Below, one piece after another: positions 1 through 63,973 of a stretch of DNA of 64,000 bases. The DNA is from Acidobacteriota bacterium (lineage in GTDB: Bacteria; Acidobacteriota; Blastocatellia; Chloracidobacteriales; Chloracidobacteriaceae). The notes under the pieces were generated by a model, which worked only from the letters and a program-made list of their open reading frames with translations, searched no databases and was not told where the DNA came from. The DNA lies in contig JACQXX010000092.1 in the NCBI GenBank assembly GCA_016208495.1, positions 1 to 64,000 of the forward strand. Direction: 5' to 3'. The translations under genes and the position numbers were made by a program. The first letter of the stretch is position 1; every line of letters begins with the position of its first letter.

Positions 1-235
1 AGTCAGTAGTCAGTAGTCAGTAGTCAGTAGTCAGTAGTCAGTAGTCAGTAGTCAGTAGTCAGTAGTCAGTAGTCAGTAGTCAGTAGTCAGTAGTCAGTAG
101 TCAGTAGTCGAGTGTTGGGATTTGAGGACTTGTGTCAAGTGGATTTGGTTCTATTTGAGTCAGTTAGGAACAATTCTTTTTAAGAATTCCATGGATTCAG
201 CTATCCGGGTTTTATCTACTGACCACTGACTACAA
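1..235. repeat. AGTCAGT heptamer element, copy 1
   Basis: About 15 tandem copies of AGTCAGT (1-108) are followed by a roughly 110-bp core and then a short inverted arm of ACTGACT-type units (about 217-235). The same core recurs at 48888-49099 (inverted) and 62778-63040, so this is a dispersed element and not an isolated microsatellite. The left edge may continue outside the window. The core contains a small AATTCTT...AAGAATT inverted repeat. No coding capacity was seen. Confidence 0.9.
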
Positions 236-243
236 AAAAATGG

Positions 244-280
244 AAAGCGGGATGGCACACCGTATGTGCCATCCCGCTTT
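244..280. terminator. Bidirectional hairpin terminator
   Basis: A perfect 16-bp stem (AAAGCGGGATGGCACA, 244-259, pairing with 265-280) encloses a 5-base loop. It is followed by TTT on the plus strand and by CCATTTTTTT on the minus strand. It lies about 70 bp past the stop of the minus-strand TPR gene and probably ends that transcript. Confidence 0.8.
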
Positions 281-282
281 TT

Positions 283-365
283 TGTCACCCTGTCACCCTG
301 TCACCTTGTCACCTGTCACCTTGTCACCTTGTCACCCACTCACCCTGTCACTTTGTCACTTTGTC
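283..365. repeat. TGTCACCY octamer array
   Basis: About ten imperfect units of TGTCACCC/TGTCACTT. The right end runs into the coding sequence of the TPR gene: its last six codons and stop (348-365) lie inside the array and encode NDKVTK. A related array overlaps the 3' end of rsmA at 43320-43395 and gives NDKVTE. Confidence 0.85.
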
Positions 366-1409
366 ATTAGCCGCGGCTTTCTGACGGAGTTGCTCGATGA
401 CCTTCTTCATTTTTTCGCGCTGTTCTTTCTGAGCAGCATCGGCAGGAATTGATTGCAAATAGGCTTCGAGCGCGTCGGCTGCTTCGCGATTCTGACTGCG
501 CTTGCTGTAAATGGTGGCCAGATAGAGGTACGCCTGTGGAATATCTTTCCCGGCAACGTGAATCACTTTTTGAAAGGCATTTATCGCATCCGGGAATGTC
601 GCTTCGGATTGTGCCAGCACCATCCCGAGCCGCATATTCACATTGGGGGAAGTCGGGTTGAGTTCAGCCGCCTTTCTCAGTGCCAGCATGCCCTCTTTCT
701 GGTGCTTGAGTTCAACACAGGCCACACCGAGCGAATAAAACCCATGCCAGCCTGAGTCATTAATCCCCACCGCCTTGACCAGCAACGGAAGCGCCGCCGG
801 ATAGTCCCCGGCATCAACATAGGTGCTCCCCAGCAATTCCAGGGCATCGTAATATTCAGGAAAGATTTCCAGTGCCTTTTTCAAAGCAGCGATTCCGGGC
901 TCAACGTCTTTCTTTTCAAAGGATTTGGTGGCCTTTTTATATTCCTTGCGGGCGTTTTCCGGCACGTCTTGATAAAACACGCTGGTATCACCTTTGGCTG
1001 GGAGCCGCTCACTTGAACTGACAGGATTTTTTCTGAGACGCAGATTCACATCAAAGGTAAAGACTTCGCCACCGGTACCAAGTGTGTTCACCGGGTTGAC
1101 TTCGATGCGGACGGTTTGGGCCTCAAAGTCCGTTCCCGCTGGTTCAATCTGCAAGTAATAGTTCCCCGCCGGCACATTGCCAAACCGATACCGCCCGGCA
1201 CTGTCAGAATACCCCATGCCAACCTGTGAGTATCCATCATTGAGCAGAAACACCCGCACATTCTGCACCGGGCGATTGTCAGTCCCAGCCACGCGTCCCT
1301 GAACCGTATTCCGGCTCTGGATCAGTGCCGTTGCCGTTACACGAAATTGGGTTGTGGGAAACGCCATCTGCCCCACCATCAGTACAATTCCAAGCAGCCT
1401 GGATTTCAT
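348..1409 (-). CDS. Exported TPR protein with carboxypeptidase-type regulatory domain
   Basis: A 353-residue protein of unknown specific role. It starts with a hydrophobic signal sequence (MKSRLLGIVLMVGQMAFP). A carboxypeptidase regulatory-like beta-sandwich (about residues 35-125, with GRVAGTDNRPVQNVRV and GNVPAGNYYLQIEP) follows, then tetratricopeptide repeats (about 155-340). The ATG at 1409 is chosen over an upstream in-frame start because AAAGGAG lies 8-9 bases before it. The C-terminus NDKVTK is encoded by the octamer array, so the original end of the protein may have been replaced. The gene is preceded by a hairpin plus T-run directly against its ribosome binding site. Family-level identification only; its partners are unknown. 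Confidence 0.8.
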   Translation of the reverse strand: MKSRLLGIVLMVGQMAFPTTQFRVTATALIQSRNTVQGRVAGTDNRPVQNVRVFLLNDGYSQVGMGYSDSAGRYRFGNVPAGNYYLQIEPAGTDFEAQTVRIEVNPVNTLGTGGEVFTFDVNLRLRKNPVSSSERLPAKGDTSVFYQDVPENARKEYKKATKSFEKKDVEPGIAALKKALEIFPEYYDALELLGSTYVDAGDYPAALPLLVKAVGINDSGWHGFYSLGVACVELKHQKEGMLALRKAAELNPTSPNVNMRLGMVLAQSEATFPDAINAFQKVIHVAGKDIPQAYLYLATIYSKRSQNREAADALEAYLQSIPADAAQKEQREKMKKVIEQLRQKAAANDKVTK

Positions 1410-5617: not shown

Positions 5618-5715
5618 ATACCAATTTGTAGTGAAGTCCTCGTATTAGAAAATAGTCAAATAGTTCAATCAAATAAACTTAGTGAACTACTGACTACTGA
5701 CTACAAACTGGTATT
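5618..5715. repeat. Degenerate ACTGACT element
   Basis: A short run of ACTGACT units (about 5682-5703) lies between inverted ends: ATACCAATTTGTAGT on the left and ACTACAAACTGGTAT on the right. The heptamer matches the AGTCAGT elements but the core differs. It may be a decayed or separate member. Confidence 0.55.
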
Positions 5716-5815
5716 AAATGAGGTTTGGATCTGAGGATGGGCAGGATTTGGCGGTGCTGGTGGATTTGAACACTCCGGCGATAACACAACGCCCGGACTG
5801 AACGAGTAAGGTTCA

Positions 5816-17100: not shown

Positions 17101-17613
17101 CGCACACCCGAAGGCAACGACGCCCTGGCCTGGGTTGACCAGAATGGCCACAGCGTCACCGAATCGCAATTTGCTATTTTGCGCGCCGCTGATTGCACGA
17201 TTGAGACCCCAGCGTTGCCACGACTGGAGAAGCATCACGAACTGGTTCAGGCTGGCGTGACCCACATCGCGGCTGAAGAAAAACGCATCGGCGGACAGTT
17301 GGGCCGTCCGACAAGCGCCCGGTATCGGACCTATGAGCGGCTCAAACACTATGCCGAATCACTACGCGGAACGCTTTTTGAATCAAAAGACTTGCTCAAA
17401 GTGTTGGAAGATATTTATCGTTATCCGCTTCGCCAGTCAGCTAGTGAAACCCTCAACCGTCAAATCCGAAGCGGCATCTCTGACCCAACCCTGGCCGAAC
17501 TGGCAATCGCCCTCCGCGATGAAGACCAGTTGTGCATTATCCACGACGAAGACCAGACCCAGGAACCACGGATTATTTGTTCGTTGGGGTTATCTGGGCA
17601 GGTAGAAACGTAG
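14200..17613 (+). CDS. PLD-like nuclease/SNF2-type helicase fusion
   Basis: A 1137-residue protein. The N-terminal phospholipase-D-like domain has one HxK motif (His139, Lys141 in LHAKLYLVFQQ) and a GSSN motif (about 159-162). The helicase core has Walker A GDVVGLGKT (about 279-287), a DESH box (about 350), the LLSATPYNK motif, and a C-terminal lobe ending RAGRVDRIGQQ (about 835-845). Similar fusions occur in restriction and anti-phage loci, where the helicase moves on DNA and the PLD part may cut it. The methylase at 18489, a likely partner, is separated only by the RAYT insertion. No clear ribosome binding site precedes the ATG. The stop TAG is the first three bases of a REP sequence. DISARM helicases are related in kind, but drmA and drmB are not present here. 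Confidence 0.85.
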   Translation: MPRIFDNIDLPFLPTLSQTLQTAIRADFCVGYFNLRGWKEIDTHLEHWVPEQGQQCRVLVGMQRPGQDELRLALSLTRHEEEVDNETAVKLKKRLAEEFREQLLIGAPTNQDEAALRRLSSQIKARKVIVKLFLRHTLHAKLYLVFQQNLNIPIVGFLGSSNLTLAGLSHQGELNIDVLDGDACQKLARWFEDRWNDRLCLDISKELVQIIDESWARETILPPYYIYLKMAYHLAQEARTGLAEFQIPSEFRNTLFEFQKAAVKIAAHHLNKRNGVLIGDVVGLGKTLMATALVRIFENDFDLEALIICPKNLVKMWEAHRERYGLRGKVLSLTRVTAELPALRRYRLVVIDESHNLRNKEGKRYKALLDYLRKNESKCVLLSATPYNKTYLDLAAQLGLFIPEDKNLGVRPENLLREIGLTEFERRHQCPVHSLAAFEASEHPDDWRELMRLFLVRRTRSFIQNNYAQTDAESGRRYLTFEDGSRSYFPNRLPKTVKFTIDDSDPNDQYARLYADQIVKILDKLTLPRYGLGNYVSAKPHTPPTQLEAKQLKDLSRAGKRLMGFCRTNLFKRLESNGQAFIQSLERHILRNFIFLHAIETDQPLPIGAQGAELLDTQVTDADADDIIFTSDMFEDDGESSDTAPSPPANRLQRLEDYQQRAAEVYALYTTEYRRRFKWLSPRFFTKSLAKDLKADAIALHGILNQCGDWAPDRDAKLDALFKLLTEQHAGEKVLVFTQFADTVRYLEEQLQSRFRQNGLNPTKISGVTGDSADPTGLAWRFSPASNQKREQIPPERELQVLVATDVLSEGQNLQDAWVIVNYDLPWAIIRLIQRAGRVDRIGQQSDRILCYSFLPAEGVERIIGLRKRIVHRLRENAEVVGTDEVFFEDDRGENILLNLYHENAGILDTDDDTEIDLVSYAYQIWKNAIAANPGLQSTITGLGNVVFSTKAHQPSPRSPEGVLLYLRTPEGNDALAWVDQNGHSVTESQFAILRAADCTIETPALPRLEKHHELVQAGVTHIAAEEKRIGGQLGRPTSARYRTYERLKHYAESLRGTLFESKDLLKVLEDIYRYPLRQSASETLNRQIRSGISDPTLAELAIALRDEDQLCIIHDEDQTQEPRIICSLGLSGQVET

Positions 17614-17726
17614 GGGCGGATCAATTGGGGCGGACACGCAGGTCTGCCCGTACATCCGCCCTGGATTTTATAAATGGGGCGGATCAATTGGGGCGGACAC
17701 GCAGGTCCGCCCCTACGATCCGCCCG
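17611..17726. repeat. REP palindromes upstream of RAYT
   Basis: Two near-identical copies (17613-17661 and 17676-17726) each contain GGGGCGGATCAATT followed by GGGGCGGACACGCAGGT and a closing TCCGCCC/GATCCGCCC. These are GC-rich imperfect palindromes of the kind mobilised by RAYT transposases. The first begins at the helicase stop codon. Confidence 0.8.
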
Positions 17727-17754
17727 CTATACCAAAATAAAATGGTGGAACGAT

Positions 17755-18336
17755 ATGGTTTACAATTCTGAAAAACACCATCGCCGGTCCATTCGATTGA
17801 AAGGGTATGATTATTCCCAGGCAGGTGCCTATTTCGTCACCATCTGCGTTCAAAACCGATTGCATTTGTTTGGAAATATTGAAGATGGGGTAATGAATTT
17901 GAATCCGGCGGGCCAGATGGTCGAACGATGGTGGCAGGAATTACCACACAAATTTCCAACCCTGGAAATTGATGAATATGTAGTGATGCCAAATCATTTC
18001 CACGCCATTATCGTCATTGACGACCAACCACCCGGTTCCCATCAGGAGGGCGGTTCCCATCAGGAGGGCGGACACGTAGGTCCGCCCCTACCCCGCCCTT
18101 CTGATGGGAATCGCCCGAATTTTACCGTCGGAACAATCGTGCAATGGTTCAAAACCATGACGACCAACGAATACATCCGCCACGTCAAACAAGACCGGTG
18201 GACGCCATTCCCCGGAAAATTATGGCAACGTGATTATTTCGAGCATATTGTCCGCAATCAGGAATCCCTCAATCGAATCCGCGCCTATATTGCGTCAAAC
18301 CCGGCAACCTGGGACCAGGATCGGGAAAACCGGTAA
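17755..18336 (+). mobile_element. RAYT (REP-associated tyrosine transposase)
   Basis: A 193-residue Y1-type transposase. The HUH motif is NHFH (His81, His83, in VVMPNHFHAIIVI). The family ending is present: LWQRDYFEHIVRNQ followed by IRAYIASNPATW, with the Tyr in RDYFEH as the likely catalytic residue. ATG at 17755 starts the conserved part (MVYNSEKHHRRSIRLKGYDY). RAYTs act on REP palindromes, and REPs lie directly before and after this gene. One REP, with two GGTTCCCATCAGGAGGGC repeats, lies inside the reading frame (about 18034-18110) without breaking it and adds a Gly/Pro-rich stretch at about residues 94-118. The gene separates the helicase from the methylase, so it probably inserted into an existing operon. 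Whether it is still active is unknown. Confidence 0.85.
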
Positions 18337-18450
18337 TGGGCGGATGTTGGGGCGGACCTGCGTGTCCGCCCTGTCCGCCCTGTCCGCCCTGTCCGCCCTG
18401 TCCGCCCTGTCCGCCCTGTCCGCCCTGTCCGCCCCTACGTCCGCCCCAAT
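18337..18450. repeat. REP remnants and TGTCCGCCC nonamer array
   Basis: Eight exact copies of TGTCCGCCC (18363-18434) lie between GGGGCGGACCTGCG and TCCGCCCCTACGTCCGCCCC. The unit is the closing half of the REP palindrome, so the array looks like tandem amplification of one REP arm. It ends about 40 bp before the methylase start. Confidence 0.85.
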
Positions 18451-32544: not shown

Positions 32545-32672
32545 GTGAGGTAGCGAGGTAGCGAGATAGCGAGATAGCGAGGAGTCAGTACCACCTGTGT
32601 AAGTGGGTGGGAGTCAAGCCTCATAGCGAGGAGTCAGTACCACTTGCGTAAGCGGGTGGGAGTCAAGCCTCG
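32545..32672. repeat. Octamer array and two 49-bp tandem hairpin repeats
   Basis: GAGGTAGC/GAGATAGC units (32545-32580) lead into two tandem 49-bp copies (32575-32623 and 32624-32672). Each contains GTCAGTACCACCTG...GGGTGGGAGTCAAGCC, able to fold as CCACCTG-loop-CGGGTGG. The same hairpin occurs inverted at 37326-37356. Confidence 0.85.
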
Positions 32673-41435: not shown

Positions 41436-43214
41436 TTAGTGCTCAACCTCCAATCGTTCCAGACTTTCAACGGCATAGACGAGTGTTCCCCAACTAACCA
41501 CGCCAGTGAGAATCAGGCAACATCCCCATCCAAGCACATTCAACCAGATTTCAAATTGGGGGAAAGCCTGCCCCAGCGCGGCAAATCCCATCACGGCAGC
41601 AAAGGCAAATCCAATGTAGGTCAAAAGAAGGAGCGGGGTTAAGCATCCGGCTTTCACCGTGGCCTGCTGCTGTGGATTTTCCCAGTCCAGTTTTGGGAAG
41701 ATGGCATGCAAACCAATCACGATGCTGGTGGCGCCAATCCCAATCACGTAAATCAATCCAAGCGAAGTCAGGACCTCGGTCAAACTCCCTTGGCGCAGGG
41801 CCGAAAACAAAAGGATAAAAAATGTTCCAATCACCGGGTATGGCAGATAAGCCAGGAGGAATTTCCCAAACAGCACCTGCCAGGCTGAGAGTGGTGCCAC
41901 TTTGAGTTGCCAATACCCTTTGCCTTCGCGATTGACTCCGGGTCCGAGGGCACCGGAAAGCGAGCTACACAGAAAGAAGGTAATTCCGGTTGTGCCAATC
42001 CGCTGAAAAACTCGGGCGAGGTCACCCCGATGATCACTTACGCCAAAATCTCCGGTCACAAGCTGGTACATCCAAAAAAGTGCCAGCAGGAGCGGAATAA
42101 TCAGATTCTGCAAATTGCGGAAATCACGAATAATCAGCCGCAGGTCTTTATATACAATCGCTCGTGAACCGGCTGGAATGATCCGAAGGATCACATTTTT
42201 CAGCCGGATTGGGAAAGTTTCGTGGGTCTCAAGTCGTAACTGGTCAGAGGTAACCAGCTTTGCTGGTCGGCGGCGCCCGCCAACCGCAATGTTTGACCAA
42301 CCGGTGTAATACAACCGTTCCGTCACCCACAAACACACCAGAAAAACACCCGCCGACACGCCAAAAAAGAGCCCTCCATACAAAATCAGGGCGACCGGGT
42401 GATGGTTCCCTGCCGCAACCAGCGTCCGGCCAGCCCAGCTCGACGGGAGCATCCACGAATCCAGCCAGTTGATCGCAGCCAGTGCCTGTTGGGCGCGTTG
42501 TGGGCCAATTGCCCGAGGCGCAAGCTGCGACAGCATAAAGATGACAATCCCGATGAACCCGCCAATGGCTGCCACCAGTTCCTGTACCCGATGGGCTGGA
42601 ATGACACGGACAATCCCCATGACACCAATGGCCCCCAGACCAGCCGGCAGCAGCGGAATGGAATACACCACCAGTGGAGTCACCACAAAATAGAGCCAGC
42701 CAAAGTCCATTCCAACGCCATATCCCCAGGCCAGCGGCAGCAGAAAAATGGTCAATAACAGATATGACATCTGTAACCCGCTGAAAAACTTGATCACAAA
42801 CACCGCTCGCATCGGGACGGGAGCCACCAGCAGCATCTCCATATCCCCTGACAGGTACAGGGCCGAAAGAATGCTGACCACACTGGTTAAGAGCAACAAG
42901 ACCAGCACAAAAAAGAAGATCCCGCTCGGGAGCGCCTCCAATGCCATCAAAATATCAAGACTTGTGATGGGTTGAAGTTCGACTGGCCCACGAGTGGCGG
43001 TCCGCTCCAGAACAGCATCAAAATGAGGATTGTGGAGTGCTTTGACCGTCAGACCAATTACACTTTTTGAAACCCAGAACGCCGTGACCGCCCCGACCAG
43101 TGAAATGGCAATCACAAACACGGCGCCAGCCTTTCGCCCCAAACCACCTCTCCAAAAGGTGTTTCGGGCAACCAGCAACCGCATATGAAAAATGACCCAA
43201 ATGGCGTTGAACAT
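41436..43214 (-). CDS. ABC-type exporter permease
   Basis: A 592-residue integral membrane protein with about a dozen hydrophobic segments (VFVIAISLVGAVTAFWV; IFFFVLVLLLLTSVVSIL; LLYIGFAFAAVMGF-like stretches). It resembles the putative ABC-2 exporter family that acts with a separate ATPase. No ATPase gene is next to it. ATG at 43214 is preferred because the longer frame adds residues encoded by the GGGGTTC array (PRTPNPEPRTPNP). Met at 43184 is another possibility, since no ribosome binding site marks the start. The substrate is unknown. Confidence 0.7.
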   Translation of the reverse strand: MFNAIWVIFHMRLLVARNTFWRGGLGRKAGAVFVIAISLVGAVTAFWVSKSVIGLTVKALHNPHFDAVLERTATRGPVELQPITSLDILMALEALPSGIFFFVLVLLLLTSVVSILSALYLSGDMEMLLVAPVPMRAVFVIKFFSGLQMSYLLLTIFLLPLAWGYGVGMDFGWLYFVVTPLVVYSIPLLPAGLGAIGVMGIVRVIPAHRVQELVAAIGGFIGIVIFMLSQLAPRAIGPQRAQQALAAINWLDSWMLPSSWAGRTLVAAGNHHPVALILYGGLFFGVSAGVFLVCLWVTERLYYTGWSNIAVGGRRRPAKLVTSDQLRLETHETFPIRLKNVILRIIPAGSRAIVYKDLRLIIRDFRNLQNLIIPLLLALFWMYQLVTGDFGVSDHRGDLARVFQRIGTTGITFFLCSSLSGALGPGVNREGKGYWQLKVAPLSAWQVLFGKFLLAYLPYPVIGTFFILLFSALRQGSLTEVLTSLGLIYVIGIGATSIVIGLHAIFPKLDWENPQQQATVKAGCLTPLLLLTYIGFAFAAVMGFAALGQAFPQFEIWLNVLGWGCCLILTGVVSWGTLVYAVESLERLEVEH

Positions 43215-43217
43215 AGG

Positions 43218-43397
43218 AAAGAGGGGGTTCGGGGTTCGGGGTTCGGGGTTCGGGGTTCGGGGTTGGGTTCGGGGTTTTCGAAGGAGGGCGCGGTTCAAAG
43301 CAACAGCGCCTTTACTTCACCCTGTCACGTTGTCACCTTGTCACCCTGTCACTCTGTCACTTTGTCACCCTGTCACTCTGTCACTTTGTCATTCAAA
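43218..43397. repeat. GGGGTTC heptamer array and TGTCACYY octamer array
   Basis: About seven GGGGTTC units (43224-43276) are followed by TTCGAAGG and then, from about 43320, by ten TGTCACYY octamers that enter the 3' end of rsmA. The heptamer end lies at the permease start, so the whole junction between two same-strand genes is repeat DNA. Confidence 0.9.
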
Positions 43398-48200: not shown

Positions 48201-48896
48201 ATGACCACATACAATCCGAAAGAAGTGGCCGGGATTTATGCCGCAAACCTGGTTGCCGAAGGCATGGTTGTCGGCTTAGGAACTGGCTCAACCGCTACAT
48301 TCATGATCAAGCATTTAGGCAAACGAGTCAGCGAAGGGCTGCATATTACGGCCATTCCAACCTCTGAAGCCTCCGCTCAGTTGGCCCAGAGCCTGGGGAT
48401 TCCGCTGGTTGGATTCGGCGAAATTGACCATATTGACATCACCATTGACGGCGCCGATGAAATTGATGGGCGGTTCGACATGCTCAAAGGCGGTGGTGGC
48501 GCGCTCTTGCGCGAAAAAGTCGTGGCGTCGTTGACGAAACGCCAGGTCTGTATTGTTGACCCGATTAAAGTTGTGGAGCAGATGGGCAAGTTTCCGCTCC
48601 CAGTTGAGGTTGTTCCCTTTGGCTGGGAAGTCGTCGCCCATCGCATTACCGCTCTGGGTGGCAAGTACACCTTGCGCCAGACCAAAGAGGCGGAACCGAA
48701 AACCTATGTGACCGACAACGGCAACTACATTCTGGACTGCGATTTTTACCCGATTACTGATGCTCCAGCCCTGGAACGAACCATCAAAATGATGCCCGGC
48801 GTGGTTGAAGTCGGCCTGTTCATCCAGATGGCTCACACGCTCATCATCGGGAATGAAGACGGCACCTGCACTGTGAAAGAAAGAGATAGTCAGTAG
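48201..48896 (+). CDS. rpiA: Ribose-5-phosphate isomerase A
   Basis: RpiA interconverts ribose 5-phosphate and ribulose 5-phosphate in the pentose phosphate pathway. The 231-residue protein shows the phosphate-binding GLGTGSTATF, the catalytic region DGADEIDGRFDMLKGGGGA, and FPLPVEVVPFGW. ATG at 48201 has AAGGA about 11 bases upstream and gives the normal length; the longer frame is rejected. The last residues (DSQ) and stop TAG lie within AGTCAGTAG, the first heptamers of the element that follows. Confidence 0.95.
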   Translation: MTTYNPKEVAGIYAANLVAEGMVVGLGTGSTATFMIKHLGKRVSEGLHITAIPTSEASAQLAQSLGIPLVGFGEIDHIDITIDGADEIDGRFDMLKGGGGALLREKVVASLTKRQVCIVDPIKVVEQMGKFPLPVEVVPFGWEVVAHRITALGGKYTLRQTKEAEPKTYVTDNGNYILDCDFYPITDAPALERTIKMMPGVVEVGLFIQMAHTLIIGNEDGTCTVKERDSQ

Positions 48897-49099
48897 TTGA
48901 TAAGTCAGTAGTCAGTAGATAAAACCCGGATAGTTAAATCTGTGGAATTCTTGAAAAGAATTGTCCCTAAATGACTCAAATAGAACCAAATACACTTGAC
49001 AGGCAATTCAAAATCCCAACACTCGACTACTGACTACTGACTACTGACTACTGACTACTGACTACTGACTACTGACTACTGACTACTGACTACTGACTA
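48888..49099. repeat. AGTCAGT heptamer element, copy 2 (inverted)
   Basis: In this orientation a short AGTCAGTAG arm with GTTGATAAGTCAG spacers (48888-48918) precedes the core (about 48919-49025), which is followed by about 10.5 ACTGACT units (49026-49099). The core is the reverse complement of copies 1 and 3, with scattered differences. It supplies the stop codon of rpiA and ends about 25 bp before the glyA start. Confidence 0.92.
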
Positions 49100-52407: not shown

Positions 52408-54618
52408 ATGGGCGATTACCTTCGCTGGGCATGCTGGCAATTGTTTCTCATTTTCTTTCAGCCGTCGCGGTTTGATCGTGAGGTAGCAGGCGATGGAGTT
52501 GAAAAGCCAACGATGTCTTTCAAGGAGCGTGTTTTCTATGTGGGGAAAATGGCTCCAGTTATGACAGCAATTGTCTTTGGGGGAAATCTGCTGATTGGTT
52601 TAGCTTGCGAGGCATATGGAATTAATTATGACTGGTTAAGATCCTGGCTATTTGCTTTTGGATGTGTGGCGGGTGGCTTGGCAGTTGGCTTGGCGGGTGG
52701 CTTGGCGGGTGGCTTGGCAGCTGGCGTGGAGAGTGACGTGGCGGGTGGCGTGGCGTCCGACGTGGCGTTTGGCTTGGTGGGTGGCTTGGTGTTTGGCCTG
52801 GCGTCCAACATGGCGAATGGCGTGGCGTCCGACGTGGCATCTTGCGTGATGTTTGGCGCGGCGGTTGGCGTGATAGTTGGCGTGATGGATAGCGTGGTGT
52901 TTGGCGTGATGGTTGGCGTGATGGATGGTGTGATAACTGGCGTGGCGGTTAGCGTGGCGTCTATCTTGGGTTATTTTAGATTCATAACGTACCCCATCAA
53001 TGCTGCACTTTCGACCACTGCTTATTTCAAAGCCAACCGAAATCCTCAAACTGCTTTTCGTGCCTGGCGATGGTGCCCCATTTCCTGGAATGAAGTGATC
53101 TGGCTGCCTTTGCCATATCTGAGCGACCTGTTGGTGTTGATGACCAAACAGCACCGTGAAGAGGGTTTTCGTCAAATCGCCTTTGTTGCGGCTGAACGCA
53201 CATTACAACGCCGTGCGGTACTTTCGGCACTGGCTGAAATTGCAGTCAGTGATTTGCAGGCCAAAACTCCGCAGGAACTGGCCAGTATTTCCGAGACGCT
53301 CAAGTGGACAACCAATGCTCCGGCAGAGTTACCGAAAGAATTGACCGAAGCCCTGCCGCAATTTGATCGAATCGCACAGCAAGTTGGTCAATCTATTGAA
53401 CTTCGTTCCCAAAATCGTAAACGGAAGGCGCTTGACCAGGCGCTGTCCGAACTCCAATCACTCCAAAAAAGCTTGATTGTGACTCGTGGAAAACTGGTGC
53501 CACGATTGCTGCAAGTCGCCAATGAATGGCAGGCACTCATCAAAGCTAGTCGTCAGGCGCTCCAGTCTGACATCGAAGCCAGAGGTGAAATCCCCAACCC
53601 GTTTGTCTTTGGAACCCCGGTGACCGAATCTGAATACAATGTTTTCACCGGGCGTCAGGACATCGTCGGTCATATCGAAGAATCCCTCCTCAATGCTGCA
53701 AATCTGCCCACCCTGCTGCTCTTTGGCCCACGACGAATGGGAAAAACCAGTATTTTGAATCAACTCCCACGGTTGCTGGGGCCCGATTTTGCGCCGGCAA
53801 TGGTTGATTGTCAGGCGCCAGCCGTGCGGGAAAGCGCCAACGCATTGCTCCGGTATATTTCAGAGGCGATGAGCGAAGCGTTGCAACGCCGCCGAATTCT
53901 GATTGACCCGCTTTCGGTTGAAGCGCTGAAAAGCGAACCGTTCGGGTTTTTTGAGAAATGGTTGACCAACGTTGAGAAAGCCCTCCCCGAACAAATGCGG
54001 GTGCTCCTGTGTCTGGATGAATATGAACGGCTACAAACGGCGCTTGATGCCGGATGGGGTGCGGACGTGCTTGATTTGCTCCGAAATACCTTTCAGCATC
54101 GGCGGCGCATCGCGATGATGTTTACCGGAGCGCATCGTTTTGCCGAACTTGGTCCCGCCTGGACGGATCGGTTTATCAGTGCGCGAAATATCCGCGTGAG
54201 CTTTCTCAAACCTGACGAAGTTGTACCGCTTCTGACCAAACCAATTCCTGATTTTGATATGACATATGCCGATGGAGCGCTTGAAGGCATTATTTCAGCG
54301 ACGAACGGACAGCCTTTTCTCATTCAAGGAATCGGCTTTGAACTGGTGCAGTTTATGAACGAAGGCAAACGGAAACAGGCGACTATCGCCGATGTCGAAG
54401 AAGCCATTTCACGCACGCTTTCGAGCGGCGATGCCTACTTTTTCAATGTCTGGAGTGATGCAGGCGAAGACGGACAGGCAATTTTGCAGGCAATCGCGAC
54501 CAGTTCACCGGTTCCAAATTTCCCGAAAGCCATGCGCTGGCTCAAAGACCACGACGTTTTGACCACCGAAGGGCGCTTCGCCGTGCCAATAGTCGAACGG
54601 TGGGTTAAGACCATTTAG
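52408..54618 (+). CDS. Membrane STAND-like ATPase with tetrapeptide repeats
   Basis: A 736-residue protein. After an N-terminal region with hydrophobic stretches, residues 87-182 consist of 24 tandem four-residue units of the form (L/V)-(A/M/V)-x-(G/D/S/N), such as LAGG, VASD, VMVG. This makes a long small-residue hydrophobic, probably membrane-embedded, segment. A middle part with helices (about 200-400) precedes a C-terminal ATPase: FTGRQDIV, Walker A FGPRRMGKTS (Lys446), Walker B VLLCLDEYERL (Asp537), and a sensor MMFTGAHRF. The layout fits a sensor ATPase tied to a membrane effector. The ATG at 52408 lacks a clear ribosome binding site; Met at 52513 is an alternative. The stop TAG overlaps the following GGGTTCA array. 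Confidence 0.8.
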   Translation: MGDYLRWACWQLFLIFFQPSRFDREVAGDGVEKPTMSFKERVFYVGKMAPVMTAIVFGGNLLIGLACEAYGINYDWLRSWLFAFGCVAGGLAVGLAGGLAGGLAAGVESDVAGGVASDVAFGLVGGLVFGLASNMANGVASDVASCVMFGAAVGVIVGVMDSVVFGVMVGVMDGVITGVAVSVASILGYFRFITYPINAALSTTAYFKANRNPQTAFRAWRWCPISWNEVIWLPLPYLSDLLVLMTKQHREEGFRQIAFVAAERTLQRRAVLSALAEIAVSDLQAKTPQELASISETLKWTTNAPAELPKELTEALPQFDRIAQQVGQSIELRSQNRKRKALDQALSELQSLQKSLIVTRGKLVPRLLQVANEWQALIKASRQALQSDIEARGEIPNPFVFGTPVTESEYNVFTGRQDIVGHIEESLLNAANLPTLLLFGPRRMGKTSILNQLPRLLGPDFAPAMVDCQAPAVRESANALLRYISEAMSEALQRRRILIDPLSVEALKSEPFGFFEKWLTNVEKALPEQMRVLLCLDEYERLQTALDAGWGADVLDLLRNTFQHRRRIAMMFTGAHRFAELGPAWTDRFISARNIRVSFLKPDEVVPLLTKPIPDFDMTYADGALEGIISATNGQPFLIQGIGFELVQFMNEGKRKQATIADVEEAISRTLSSGDAYFFNVWSDAGEDGQAILQAIATSSPVPNFPKAMRWLKDHDVLTTEGRFAVPIVERWVKTI
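52666..52953 (+). repeat. 12-bp coding tandem repeat (24 units)
   Basis: Within the membrane ATPase gene, a degenerate 12-base unit close to GGCGTGGCGnnT is repeated 24 times and encodes the tetrapeptides. Third positions and the variable third residue differ, but the period is kept throughout without any frame loss. Confidence 0.9.
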
Positions 54619-54649
54619 GGTTCAGGGTTCAGGGTTCAGGGTTCAGGGA
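54616..54649. repeat. GGGTTCA array
   Basis: About four and a half GGGTTCA units begin at the stop codon TAG of the membrane ATPase gene (TAGGGTTCAGGG). It lies between that gene and the convergent esterase. Confidence 0.85.
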
Positions 54650-57131: not shown

Positions 57132-57250
57132 TTGGGGGCTTGGGCGATTGAAGGGATGAGGGATGAGGGATGAAATAAAACCAATTCTTCAGCCCAATGT
57201 CTTCAGCCCTGAGCCCTGAGCCCGATGTCTTCAGCCCGAGAAAAAGGTCT
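57131..57250. repeat. GGATGAG / CTTCAGCCC element inside the ATP synthase cluster
   Basis: Between atpF and atpH. GGCGATTGAAGGGATGAG and further GGGATGA units are followed by AAACCAATTCTTCAGCCC, CCCTGAG units and CTTCAGCCC. It is a close copy of the element at 44710-44865. Confidence 0.85.
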
Positions 57251-57817: not shown

Positions 57818-58149
57818 AGAATGAAGAATGTGGTTAGTGGTTAGTTTTTAGTGCCTGGTTCTTGGTTCTTCTTCGAAAGTATTGATTTCTAATCACTAAT
57901 CACTAATCACTAAAAGGGTTCTTCATTCTTAAGCTGGTGCATGTGTTGATCTGAGTTGGGTTTCACACAGGGGATTGTGTTTGGATAGAGCGATTTTCTT
58001 TTCCACGCATTCATTTTTTCAGGGGATTCCCCTCATCCTCACCTCCAGACACTCTTTTGGTGAGCACCACTCATCGCCAATGCCCGGTAAAACGATGTTA
58101 GTTTTTTTGAATTGAATTATTTGCGGGATTTCCCTGACAGGAAGAAACT
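57818..58149. repeat. AATCACT repeat element between atpH and atpA
   Basis: GGTTAGT units (about 57831-57848), a core containing TTCTTCGAAAGTATTG, and three AATCACT units (57891-57912) form an inverted-type layout. The 25 bp at 57868-57892 are the exact reverse complement of 34044-34068. From 57930 to 58149 I see only the atpA leader, with AGGAAG before its start. Confidence 0.75.
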
Positions 58150-59682: not shown

Positions 59683-59768
59683 GAGAATGAAGAATGAAGA
59701 ATGAAGAATGAAGAAACCATTCTGTTTTTTCTTTCTTCATTCTCAATTCTCAATTCTTCATTCAGACA
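59683..59768. repeat. GAATGAA ... TTCATTC inverted heptamer element
   Basis: Four GAATGAA units (from about 59685) are mirrored by TTCATTC/TCAATTC units (59741-59762) around a short T-rich core, so the transcript could fold into a hairpin. It lies between atpA and atpG. Confidence 0.85.
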
Positions 59769-60729: not shown

Positions 60730-60898
60730 CCGGGTTCAGGGTTCAGGGTTCAGGGTTCAGGGTTCAGGGTTCAGGGTTCAGGGTTCAGGGTTCAGGGTTC
60801 AGGGTTCAGGGTTCAGGGTCTTCGAACTTTTGTCCTTTTCGTCTTTTTTGTCCTTTATGTCTTTTAAACCCTGGACCCTGAAACCCTGAACCCTTACC
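60730..60898. repeat. GGGTTCA heptamer element with inverted arm
   Basis: About 12.5 GGGTTCA units (60732-60819), a core with TTCGAAC and GTCCTTT-type units, and an inverted arm of CCCTGAA units (60866-60895). It follows atpG. Confidence 0.9.
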
Positions 60899-62217: not shown

Positions 62218-62780
62218 ATCAACCTATTTCGTCGAAGCTCCACTATGTATTGCGTGTGTTTCACAGCATCTGTTTATTTGTTCTGGTGTTTGTGACGGTC
62301 GGTGCTGGCCCCTGCGGATACAAACCAGCCGGGAAAGGTGGTTCATTGCCGCCGAATATCCGCACGATTGCCATTCAGACATTTACCAACGAGAGCCTGC
62401 GGTATCGGGTCGAACAACGGTTTACGGCGGCGCTGGCGGATGAAATTCTGCGCCGGGGGTTACCAATCAGGCTCACAACCGATACCACTCACGCCGATGC
62501 GCTCATCACCGGGAGCATCCGCAACTTTGGATTTCGAGGGGTACTCGTTGACGATCAGGGCCGTATCCGCCTGTATGAACTCACCATCACTTCAGCCGTG
62601 ACGCTGCGCGACCAGACCTCCAATCGCGTCCTGTTTAACGATCAACGGCTGCAATTTCGTGGCGAATATCAACTCTCCGATGATCCGCGCTCATTTTTTA
62701 ACGAAGAAGACCCAGCCGTCGAACGCATGGCCCGCGACTTCGCCCGAAGCGTGGTAACTTCAATGTTAGAGGGATTTTAG
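62214..62780 (+). CDS. lptE: LptE-family outer-membrane LPS assembly lipoprotein
   Basis: A 188-residue protein. A hydrophobic N-terminus (VFHSICLFVLVFVTVGAGP) ends at a Cys in CGYKP, which fits a lipoprotein. SLPPNIRTIAIQTFTNES is typical of LptE, which sits in the LptD pore and helps place lipopolysaccharide on the cell surface. It is translationally coupled to the flavoprotein gene. The stop TAG is the first three bases of the AGTCAGT element that follows. Confidence 0.85.
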   Translation: MNQPISSKLHYVLRVFHSICLFVLVFVTVGAGPCGYKPAGKGGSLPPNIRTIAIQTFTNESLRYRVEQRFTAALADEILRRGLPIRLTTDTTHADALITGSIRNFGFRGVLVDDQGRIRLYELTITSAVTLRDQTSNRVLFNDQRLQFRGEYQLSDDPRSFFNEEDPAVERMARDFARSVVTSMLEGF

Positions 62781-63040
62781 TCAGTAGTCAGTAGTCAGTA
62801 GTCAGTAGTCAGTAGTCAGTAGTCAGTAGTCAGTAGTCAGTAGTCAGTAGTCAGTAGTCAGTAGTCAGTAGTCAGTAGTCGAGTGTTGGGAATTGAGAAA
62901 TTCTGTCAAGTGGATTCGGTTCTATTTGAGTCATTTAGGAACAATTCTTTTCAAGAATTCGACGGATTCAACGATCCGGGTTTTATCTACTGACTACTGA
63001 CTTATCAACTACTGACTTATCAACTACTGACTACTGACTA
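62778..63040. repeat. AGTCAGT heptamer element, copy 3
   Basis: About 14.5 AGTCAGT units (62779-62880), a core of about 115 bp (62880-62990), and an inverted arm of ACTGACT units with ACTTATCAACT spacers (62990-63040). The outer ends TAGTCAGTAG and CTACTGACTA are exact inverted repeats. The left TAG is the stop of lptE and the right CTA is the stop of rnz on the other strand. Confidence 0.95.
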
Positions 63041-63973
63041 CGATCTTGAATTATCCACCGTCCACACCAAAAAATCGTGCGCCAGCTCAGTATTGGGAAA
63101 GATTGAACGGGCATCTTTGAGCAGATCATCGAGGGTGATAGCGCTTTCATTGGTGTAGCGCGGGCTGAAATGTGTCAGCAAGAGTTGTTTCACACCGGCT
63201 TCGAGGGCGACACGGGCGGCCATGCGCGTGGTTGAATGCAGGGCGCGATGGGCCAGGGGCTCGTCTTCGTGGGCATAGGTACTTTCGTGAATCAAAACAT
63301 CCGCATCTTTGGCCAGCCGGACTGATGATTCGGAATAAATCGTGTCGGTGCAATACACCACTGACCGGCCCGGCTTGGGAGGACCACAGAGTTCGGCGCC
63401 GTTGATGGTTTGGCCATCGGCGAGCGTGATGGAATTACCGCGTTTGAGTTCTCCGTAGAGCGGCCCAAACGGAATCCCCAGCGCCTTTGCTTTTTCGACC
63501 AGAAACTGACCGGGTCGGTCTTTTTCCTGCACCCGGTAGCCATAAGCTGGAATGCGATGCCGGAGCGTGGCACAGGTAACCGTGTATTCGTGGTCTTCAA
63601 AGACCAGTCCAGGTTTCACCGGGTGAATATTGAGATTGTAGGGAAACTGGGTCTGCGTGAAGTGCTGGCAAGCGTGGATCAAGTCTTTCAACTCAGCCGG
63701 TCCATATAAATCAACTTTGGTCATTCGCCCGGTCAGACCAGCGCTGGAAAGCAAGCCCATCAGTCCAAACGTGTGGTCGCCGTGCATATGCGTGACGAAA
63801 ATACGGCGCAACTGGCTGATACTGAGGTTGCTGCGAAAAAACTGATGCTGGGTGCCTTCGCCACAGTCAAACATCCACTGCTCCCCTCGTTGGGTCAACG
63901 ACAGGATCACGCTCGACACATTGCGTGCCCGAGTTGGAACGCCTGAACTGGTACCGAGAAAAGTGATTTGCAT
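63038..63973 (-). CDS. rnz: Ribonuclease Z
   Basis: RNase Z removes 3' trailers from tRNA precursors. The 311-residue protein has the normal length of the short form. It shows the metal-binding motif HMHGDH (His62, His64, Asp66, His67), the opening FLGTSSGVPTRARNVSS, and DVLIHESTYAHED. The C-terminal SRS is followed by a TAG stop that belongs to the AGTCAGT element. The ATG is near the window edge and its upstream region begins with GGGCTGAA repeat DNA. Confidence 0.95.
   Translation of the reverse strand: MQITFLGTSSGVPTRARNVSSVILSLTQRGEQWMFDCGEGTQHQFFRSNLSISQLRRIFVTHMHGDHTFGLMGLLSSAGLTGRMTKVDLYGPAELKDLIHACQHFTQTQFPYNLNIHPVKPGLVFEDHEYTVTCATLRHRIPAYGYRVQEKDRPGQFLVEKAKALGIPFGPLYGELKRGNSITLADGQTINGAELCGPPKPGRSVVYCTDTIYSESSVRLAKDADVLIHESTYAHEDEPLAHRALHSTTRMAARVALEAGVKQLLLTHFSPRYTNESAITLDDLLKDARSIFPNTELAHDFLVWTVDNSRS

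Follow-up and report, generated by a model that had tools for sequence, protein, structure and literature searches.

Tandem arrays, usually of a 7-bp unit, frame hundreds of intergenic gaps across the Blastocatellia compared here, and those lying next to stop codons are probably (at about 0.6) the outer arms of arm-loop-arm structures, built as inverted repeats, that take up the intergenic spaces. The layout is that of a stop codon, a purine- or G-rich unit in n copies, a loop, the reverse complement of the unit in n copies and then the next gene. The window, i.e. the whole 64,000-nucleotide stretch that was analysed, belongs to an 8.38-Mb genome in 177 contigs from the acidobacterial class Blastocatellia. 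An earlier note on its sequence had proposed that repeats target, or spread from, the 3' ends of genes, perhaps from terminators; the enrichment at 3' ends was borne out while spreading from gene ends or terminators was not, since many arrays turned out to be one arm of an inverted pair.

The sequence sampled amounted to 1.39 Mb of the window genome and ca. 0.4 Mb each from G001 (the nearest relative compared, of the same family), G014 and G026. Tandem arrays were searched for without choosing units beforehand, and genes were called with an in-house hexamer-based finder, so that start positions are especially approximate. The G strand of an array is that with more G than C, ties being settled by purine content.

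Gene ends in the window

The last codons and the stop of both the TPR gene and rsmA are read from GTGACAAA/GTGACAGA octamers, as had been claimed: the TPR protein ends in AAANDKVTK (stop 348-350, minus strand) and RsmA in AACLNDKVTE (stop 43373-43375, minus strand). Likewise, the TAG stops of rpiA (48896; identified by a Pfam Rib_5-P_isom_A match), lptE (62780), rnz (63038, minus strand) and an AAA ATPase gene (54618) do lie inside a repeat unit or at its first base. Other junctions needed correction. The repeat AGTGACAAAGTGA follows the CcbP-like gene, not at once but after a 4-nt gap, and GAATGAA arrays follow atpA, not directly but 2 nt past the stop. The end of dtd does fall within repeats, but these GAAACCC units have the opposite (C-rich) polarity, as the next ORF begins with its ATG straight after them. 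In the case of the SNF2-type helicase (17613), the TAG stop comes not from a heptamer repeat but from a GTAG-tagged REP palindrome by a RAYT-like gene. The features concerned are as follows.

1-109, plus strand: TAGTCAG heptamer array, left arm of E1 copy a
110-215, plus strand: core of E1 copy a, with its right arm at 216-233
244-280, minus strand: intrinsic terminator hairpin with a T-run, beyond the octamer array at the TPR 3' end
283-366, minus strand: GTGACARR octamer array, from which the TPR gene (348-1409, minus strand) takes its final codons (NDKVTK) and its TGA stop (348-350)
43224-43276, minus strand: CCCCGAA heptamers, the opposite arm, with a C-rich coding strand, ahead of the next gene (start near 43214)
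43277-43315, minus strand: E6 core (TTCGAAGGAGGGCGCGGTTCAAAGCAACAGCGCCTTTAC on the plus strand), between the octamer arm and the heptamer arm
43317-43391, minus strand: GTGACARR octamer arm giving NDKVTE and the TGA stop (43373-43375) of rsmA
48888-48920, plus strand: TAGTCAG-type arm overlapping the rpiA end and its TAG stop (48894-48896)
48919-49024, minus strand: core of E1 copy b
49025-49099, plus strand: inverted arm, 10.7 copies of GACTACT, ahead of the SHMT gene start (49124)
54617-54648, plus strand: GGGTTCA array, whose first bases are entered by the TAG stop of the AAA ATPase gene (52849-54618)
57153-57237, plus strand: spacer upstream of atpH, with a GGGATGA arm (57153-57175) and a TCAGCCC arm (57186-57237)
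57818-57913, plus strand: E4 element right after the atpH stop, with a left arm of GAATGAA and TTAGTGG (57818-57844), a core and a right CTAATCA arm (57889-57913)
59684-59763, plus strand: atpA-atpG spacer, with a GAATGAA left arm (59684-59715) and a right arm (59732-59763)
60732-60893, plus strand: E2 element 3' of atpG, with a left arm of 12.6 GGGTTCA copies (60732-60819), a TTCGAA/GTCCTTT core and a right arm (60866-60893)
62778-62880, plus strand: 14.7 copies of TAGTCAG, left arm of E1 copy c, the first TAG being the lptE stop (62778-62780)
62881-62986, plus strand: core of E1 copy c
62987-63041, plus strand: right arm of E1 copy c, giving the TAG stop of the convergent rnz (63038-63040, minus strand)

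Of 821 genes here, 52 have their whole stop codon inside a repeat run, as have 16 of 282 in G001 (ca. 6%), and this stop is never TAA. Unrelated proteins share repeat-coded ends, namely DKVT plus one residue in four proteins here and RTED (n = 5) or RIEN (n = 3) in G001; no internal RTED was seen in the G001 proteins sampled. Addition of C-terminal residues, as the earlier note implied, did not fit RsmA, which is about as long here as its orthologues without a repeat, so that on sequence comparison its native end codons look replaced by the repeat rather than extended.

True GTAG REPs occur at 17610-18438, separate from the heptamer arms. There (17610-18450), a RAYT-like Y1_Tnp gene (17755-18336, partial domain) is flanked by GTAGGGGCGGAC palindromes and also by a perfect array of eight TGTCCGCCC nonamers; its ORF contains a REP copy and the TAG stop of the upstream helicase comes from the GTAG tag. 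Other Y1_Tnp genes of the genome (L073-L080) are mostly bracketed by long palindromes of their own (e.g. CCGGTGGGTGCGCCTCAAAGCAGGC), and the RAYT/REP set is multi-family and distinct from the heptamers. Elsewhere in the window, two tandem copies of a 49-bp unit with ACCACCTGCGTAAGCGGGTGG (32574-32671) lie in the gap that separates a DUF7309/DUF6930 gene from a large TPR gene.

Position and orientation of the arrays

Period-7 arrays account for 276 of the ca. 345 arrays found in 1.22 Mb of the window genome, 261 of these 276 being intergenic, and none was found in shuffled sequence; heptamer arrays reach 350 per Mb in G001. Their distances to stop codons, which the earlier note had singled out as the measurement to make, are far from flat: of 217 arrays in tandem spacers, 61 occupy the stop-side tenth of the free space (ca. 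22 expected; KS p 2e-7). Yet only about a third of the arrays are stop-adjacent, and a second, weaker peak of opposite orientation precedes start codons. Compared with 2000 draws of random placement, the arrays that lie no more than 10 bp from a stop in spacers between same-strand genes numbered 43 vs 14 in the 1.39 Mb of the window genome (highest draw 28) and 41 vs 9 in G001 (highest draw 20), and those near starts 20 vs 14 and 18 vs 9, respectively. Words of the repeat families occur 10-30 nt after the stop in 21% of genes on the sense strand and in 0.7% on the antisense strand, a metagene ratio of ca. 30:1 that is reversed ahead of starts. Much of this anchoring could come from purifying selection alone.

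Orientation follows a simple rule, the purine- or G-rich strand being the sense strand downstream of a stop and the antisense strand upstream of a start, so that it reads inward from the flanking gene. For arrays within 20 bp of a gene end, those obeying and violating the rule were 128 and 4 here, 98 and 1 in G001, 14 and 1 in G014 and 11 and 1 in G026, which pools to 251 vs 7 over the four genomes, arrays that share one spacer not being independent in this count. In the window genome, 37 of the 43 unit families found within 60 bp of gene ends follow the rule by majority, and all 20 listed adjacent inverted pairs have the G-rich strand first. Stop codons carried by the units do not explain this polarity, because units without a sense-strand stop (GGGTTCG, GGGTTCC and AACCAAG) obey it too. 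A general base skew of 3' flanks was also dismissed, G only slightly exceeding C after stops in array-free spacers, and no G-tract is required, many rule-obeying families being without GGG. The polarity is thus as expected of a two-armed structure whose ends abut the flanking genes.

Arms, loops and their counterparts in other genomes

An inverted partner of the same unit was found in the same spacer for 119 of 327 arrays here (control 16) and for 98 of 144 in G001 (control 3); for most arrays of the window genome no such partner could be detected. Left and right arms do not correlate in copy number. In the window genome, the arms often enclose conserved cores (E1, E2, E4 and E6), of which E1 measures about 105 bp and occurs in at least 40 copies with 88-96% identity. 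E6 has a heptamer arm on one side and an octamer arm on the other, and E4 has composite GAATGAA and TTAGTGG arms. A multicopy conserved core between inverted arms, as in E1, was found for 17 of 23 loops here, in contrast to most G001 loops: of those measuring 39-121 bp, 32 of 34 had no similar loop, and 13 of 16 were single-copy in a whole-genome search, which rejects recently copied DNA as the source of the loops in these 13.

Little DNA is left outside the arms, with 2-9 bp on the stop side and 12-41 bp on the start side. The median total residue in G001 is 10-20 bp vs 130-140 bp for array-free spacers longer than 30 bp. Native spacer would be expected to remain outside the arms after an insertion, and so tiny a residue implies that part of the history is missing. 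When residues total 60-120 bp, protection of the start region would by itself give about the stop-side share seen; above 120 bp, a further pull toward the stop remains.

RNA folding gave a long stem in three of the four spacers folded, i.e. the window atpA-atpG spacer (-34.2 kcal/mol, z -5.8), the E4 element after atpH (57818-57913; z -5.0) and the G001 atpA-atpG spacer (30-bp stem, -77.9 kcal/mol, z -12.8), while one E1 copy folded no better than its shuffles (z -0.4). No Rfam family was matched in the window. By analogy with REP/BIME sequences, the likeliest cellular effect would be that of a hairpin at mRNA 3' ends or between cistrons, acting on stability or translation.

Two further elements were observed next to arrays. 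In E3 (window 5685-5775; copies in L002, L005, L009, L011 and L020; 52 matches in 1.2 Mb), a TAGTCAG arm leads into a conserved TTCACTAAGTTTATTTGATTGAACTATTTGACTATTTTCTAATACGAG..TTCATTCCAAAATGGTATAA sequence. A palindromic element with ATGCCAGTTAAGAGTTGAAG ends (L025 8213-8400, and others) lies beside or inside arrays of at least two families (TAGTCAG and TTAGTGG), placed as if heptamer arrays were its target.

Between genomes, the place is kept and the unit changes. Arms occur in the atpA-atpG spacer of five genomes with five different units (GAATGAA here, GGACTGA in G001, TTGAGAA/TTGAGAG in G002, TTGATAG-like in G026 and GGTAGCC-like in G014) and are absent from this spacer in G003 and G010; the unit at lptE is TAGTCAG here, GGACTGA in G001 and AAAGGCA in G014. 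More broadly, a pattern of four GNRNTSA copies was matched in 116 of 162 Blastocatellia genomes, the reversed control scoring far lower in array-rich ones. At the 80 AtpA loci from other genomes (1.3 Mb, mostly from other classes or phyla), heptamer arrays were nearly absent except in G001 (L176). Only seven adjacent gene pairs are common to the window genome and G001, too few for an empty-site comparison. Some genera (G160/G161 and G044-G050) have one species with hundreds of pattern matches and another with few or none, contrasts that offer natural material for comparing occupied and empty spacers.

Origin of the structures and relation to known repeats

Under the arm-loop-arm reading, the structures would have spread within each genome, as cores with arms here and as arms around unrelated loops in G001, and replication slippage would afterwards change the length of each arm on its own. 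Arms that run into coding DNA would be tolerated on the stop side, where they contribute the final residues and the stop codon, since in most units a stop comes up within 21-24 bases and C-termini can be spared. At the other end the ribosome-binding region has to be preserved, so that arms would end about 12-40 bp short of the start, and starts and promoters would be avoided, in keeping with the scarcity of arrays in divergent spacers. Since such a structure fills the spacer up to its coding limits, the anchoring would mainly be that of its near edge and not recognition of stop codons.

Targeted insertion at 3' ends, by a transposase or another activity recognising terminators, stops or transcript ends, would account for the excess of arrays within 10 bp of stops, far above random placement, for left edges that lie near stops even in many 250-700 bp spacers and for convergent spacers that are often repeat from one stop to the other. 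It is nonetheless unlikely, given that offsets of the first word to the stop scatter from -15 to +25 with no single value, that an opposite arm of mirror polarity precedes starts and that the stop-side share at residues of 60-120 bp resembles start-region protection alone. The terminator version is weak in particular: a separate terminator (244-280) stands intact beyond the TPR array, and arm-loop-arm structures also occur between co-oriented ATP-synthase genes, which are expected to be co-transcribed. About as doubtful is a miniature-transposon or REPIN-type origin, with the arms as terminal inverted repeats of non-autonomous elements moved in trans by a transposase such as RAYT. The conserved cores with defined ends (E1, E2, E4 and E6) and nine Y1_Tnp matches in the genome would suit it, and REPs likewise lie 3' of genes and supply TAG stops (PMC3733652); but the 13 single-copy G001 loops are unlike a moved element, and the Y1_Tnp genes inspected are flanked by other palindromes and none immediately by heptamer arms, which rejects RAYTs as the heptamer mover. 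Among other candidates, reverse transcriptase was set aside, as no arms lie directly at the three RVT_1 matches. Loss of SbcD, which might permit long inverted repeats, was discarded too: the window genome has no match above the cut-off, but the array-rich G001 and G002 have one, as do the array-poor G003-G008.

Neutral slippage, in which chance heptamer seeds expand and purifying selection confines them to spacers so that they appear anchored at stops, is the least probable origin. The uncorrelated arm lengths and the avoidance of coding DNA and divergent spacers agree with it; however, a small set of units is found again and again at many loci, always with one mirror polarity and with unit-matched partner arms, neither of which independent seeds would give. 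As an origin it is thus largely refuted by unit sharing and polarity, and it remains as a process of length change. Slightly less improbable, although still a long shot, is an activity that would write a genome-specific heptamer, purine-rich strand 5' to 3' inward, onto the two flanks of a spacer already in place; examples would be templated synthesis of the telomerase kind that extends the two 3' ends of an intergenic break, or else copying of one arm onto the other via a hairpin. Matched arms around unique loops, almost no native spacer outside them and different units at one orthologous site are compatible with it, and mirror polarity is just what extension of both 3' ends would produce. 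If true, 3' ends would be rewritten genome-wide with exchangeable units, and unrelated proteins would acquire common C-terminal tails.

Heterocystous cyanobacteria have small dispersed repeats and STRR heptamers, likened here by description only, that are likewise heptamer tandem arrays tied to small mobile-like sequences. The closest system is that of the GGGNATC heptamers of Xanthomonas and Nostoc (Rehm et al. 2015, PMC4692102), which belong to a single G4-forming unit family and favour arrays of four copies. These too are intergenic, overlap stop codons, form convergent inverted pairs and are rare between divergent genes, and their G-rich strand is the sense strand within 50 bp of stops and the antisense strand ahead of ORFs (PMC4692102). 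The same polarity, stop proximity and inverted pairs are therefore already known for one repeat. What is new here is the dozens of unit families, many without G-runs (TAGTCAG, GAATGAA, AGCGAGT and GAATTGA), the turnover of units at one orthologous site and the little native spacer outside the arms; the loops add a further difference, being conserved cores in one genome but unique in another.

REP, BIME and REPIN sequences share the intergenic 3'-end location near stops, the inverted doublets forming hairpins and the supply of TAG stops by REP termini (PMC12306157, PMC3733652, PMC3116915), and some REPs lie within 15 nt of stops, where in E. coli they affect translation (PMC12306157). REPs are, however, 20-40 bp palindromes, many with GTAG or CGTC tags, whereas the arms here, simple heptamers in tandem, have neither a tag nor an internal palindrome and were not found next to the RAYT genes of the window genome. 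The TAACTGA direct repeats of Beggiatoaceae (MacGregor 2015, PMC4679880) are also intergenic, orientation-biased heptamers with stops in one strand and limited overlap of ORF ends, but they form a single family of short arrays, mostly just upstream of starts, with just one inverted case.

The Xanthomonas and Nostoc heptamers have so far been discussed mainly as G-quadruplexes. With so many rule-obeying families lacking G-runs, G-quadruplex formation cannot be the general cause, and the occurrence of the same polarity and stop proximity across dozens of such families indicates that the rule is a property of the two-armed architecture and not of the sequence. The presence of the system across the class, together with the change of unit at an orthologous spacer, opens up the questions of how spacers in bacteria come to be rewritten, by what means repeats move when no transposase is visible and how frequently conserved proteins are altered by repeat-coded tails.
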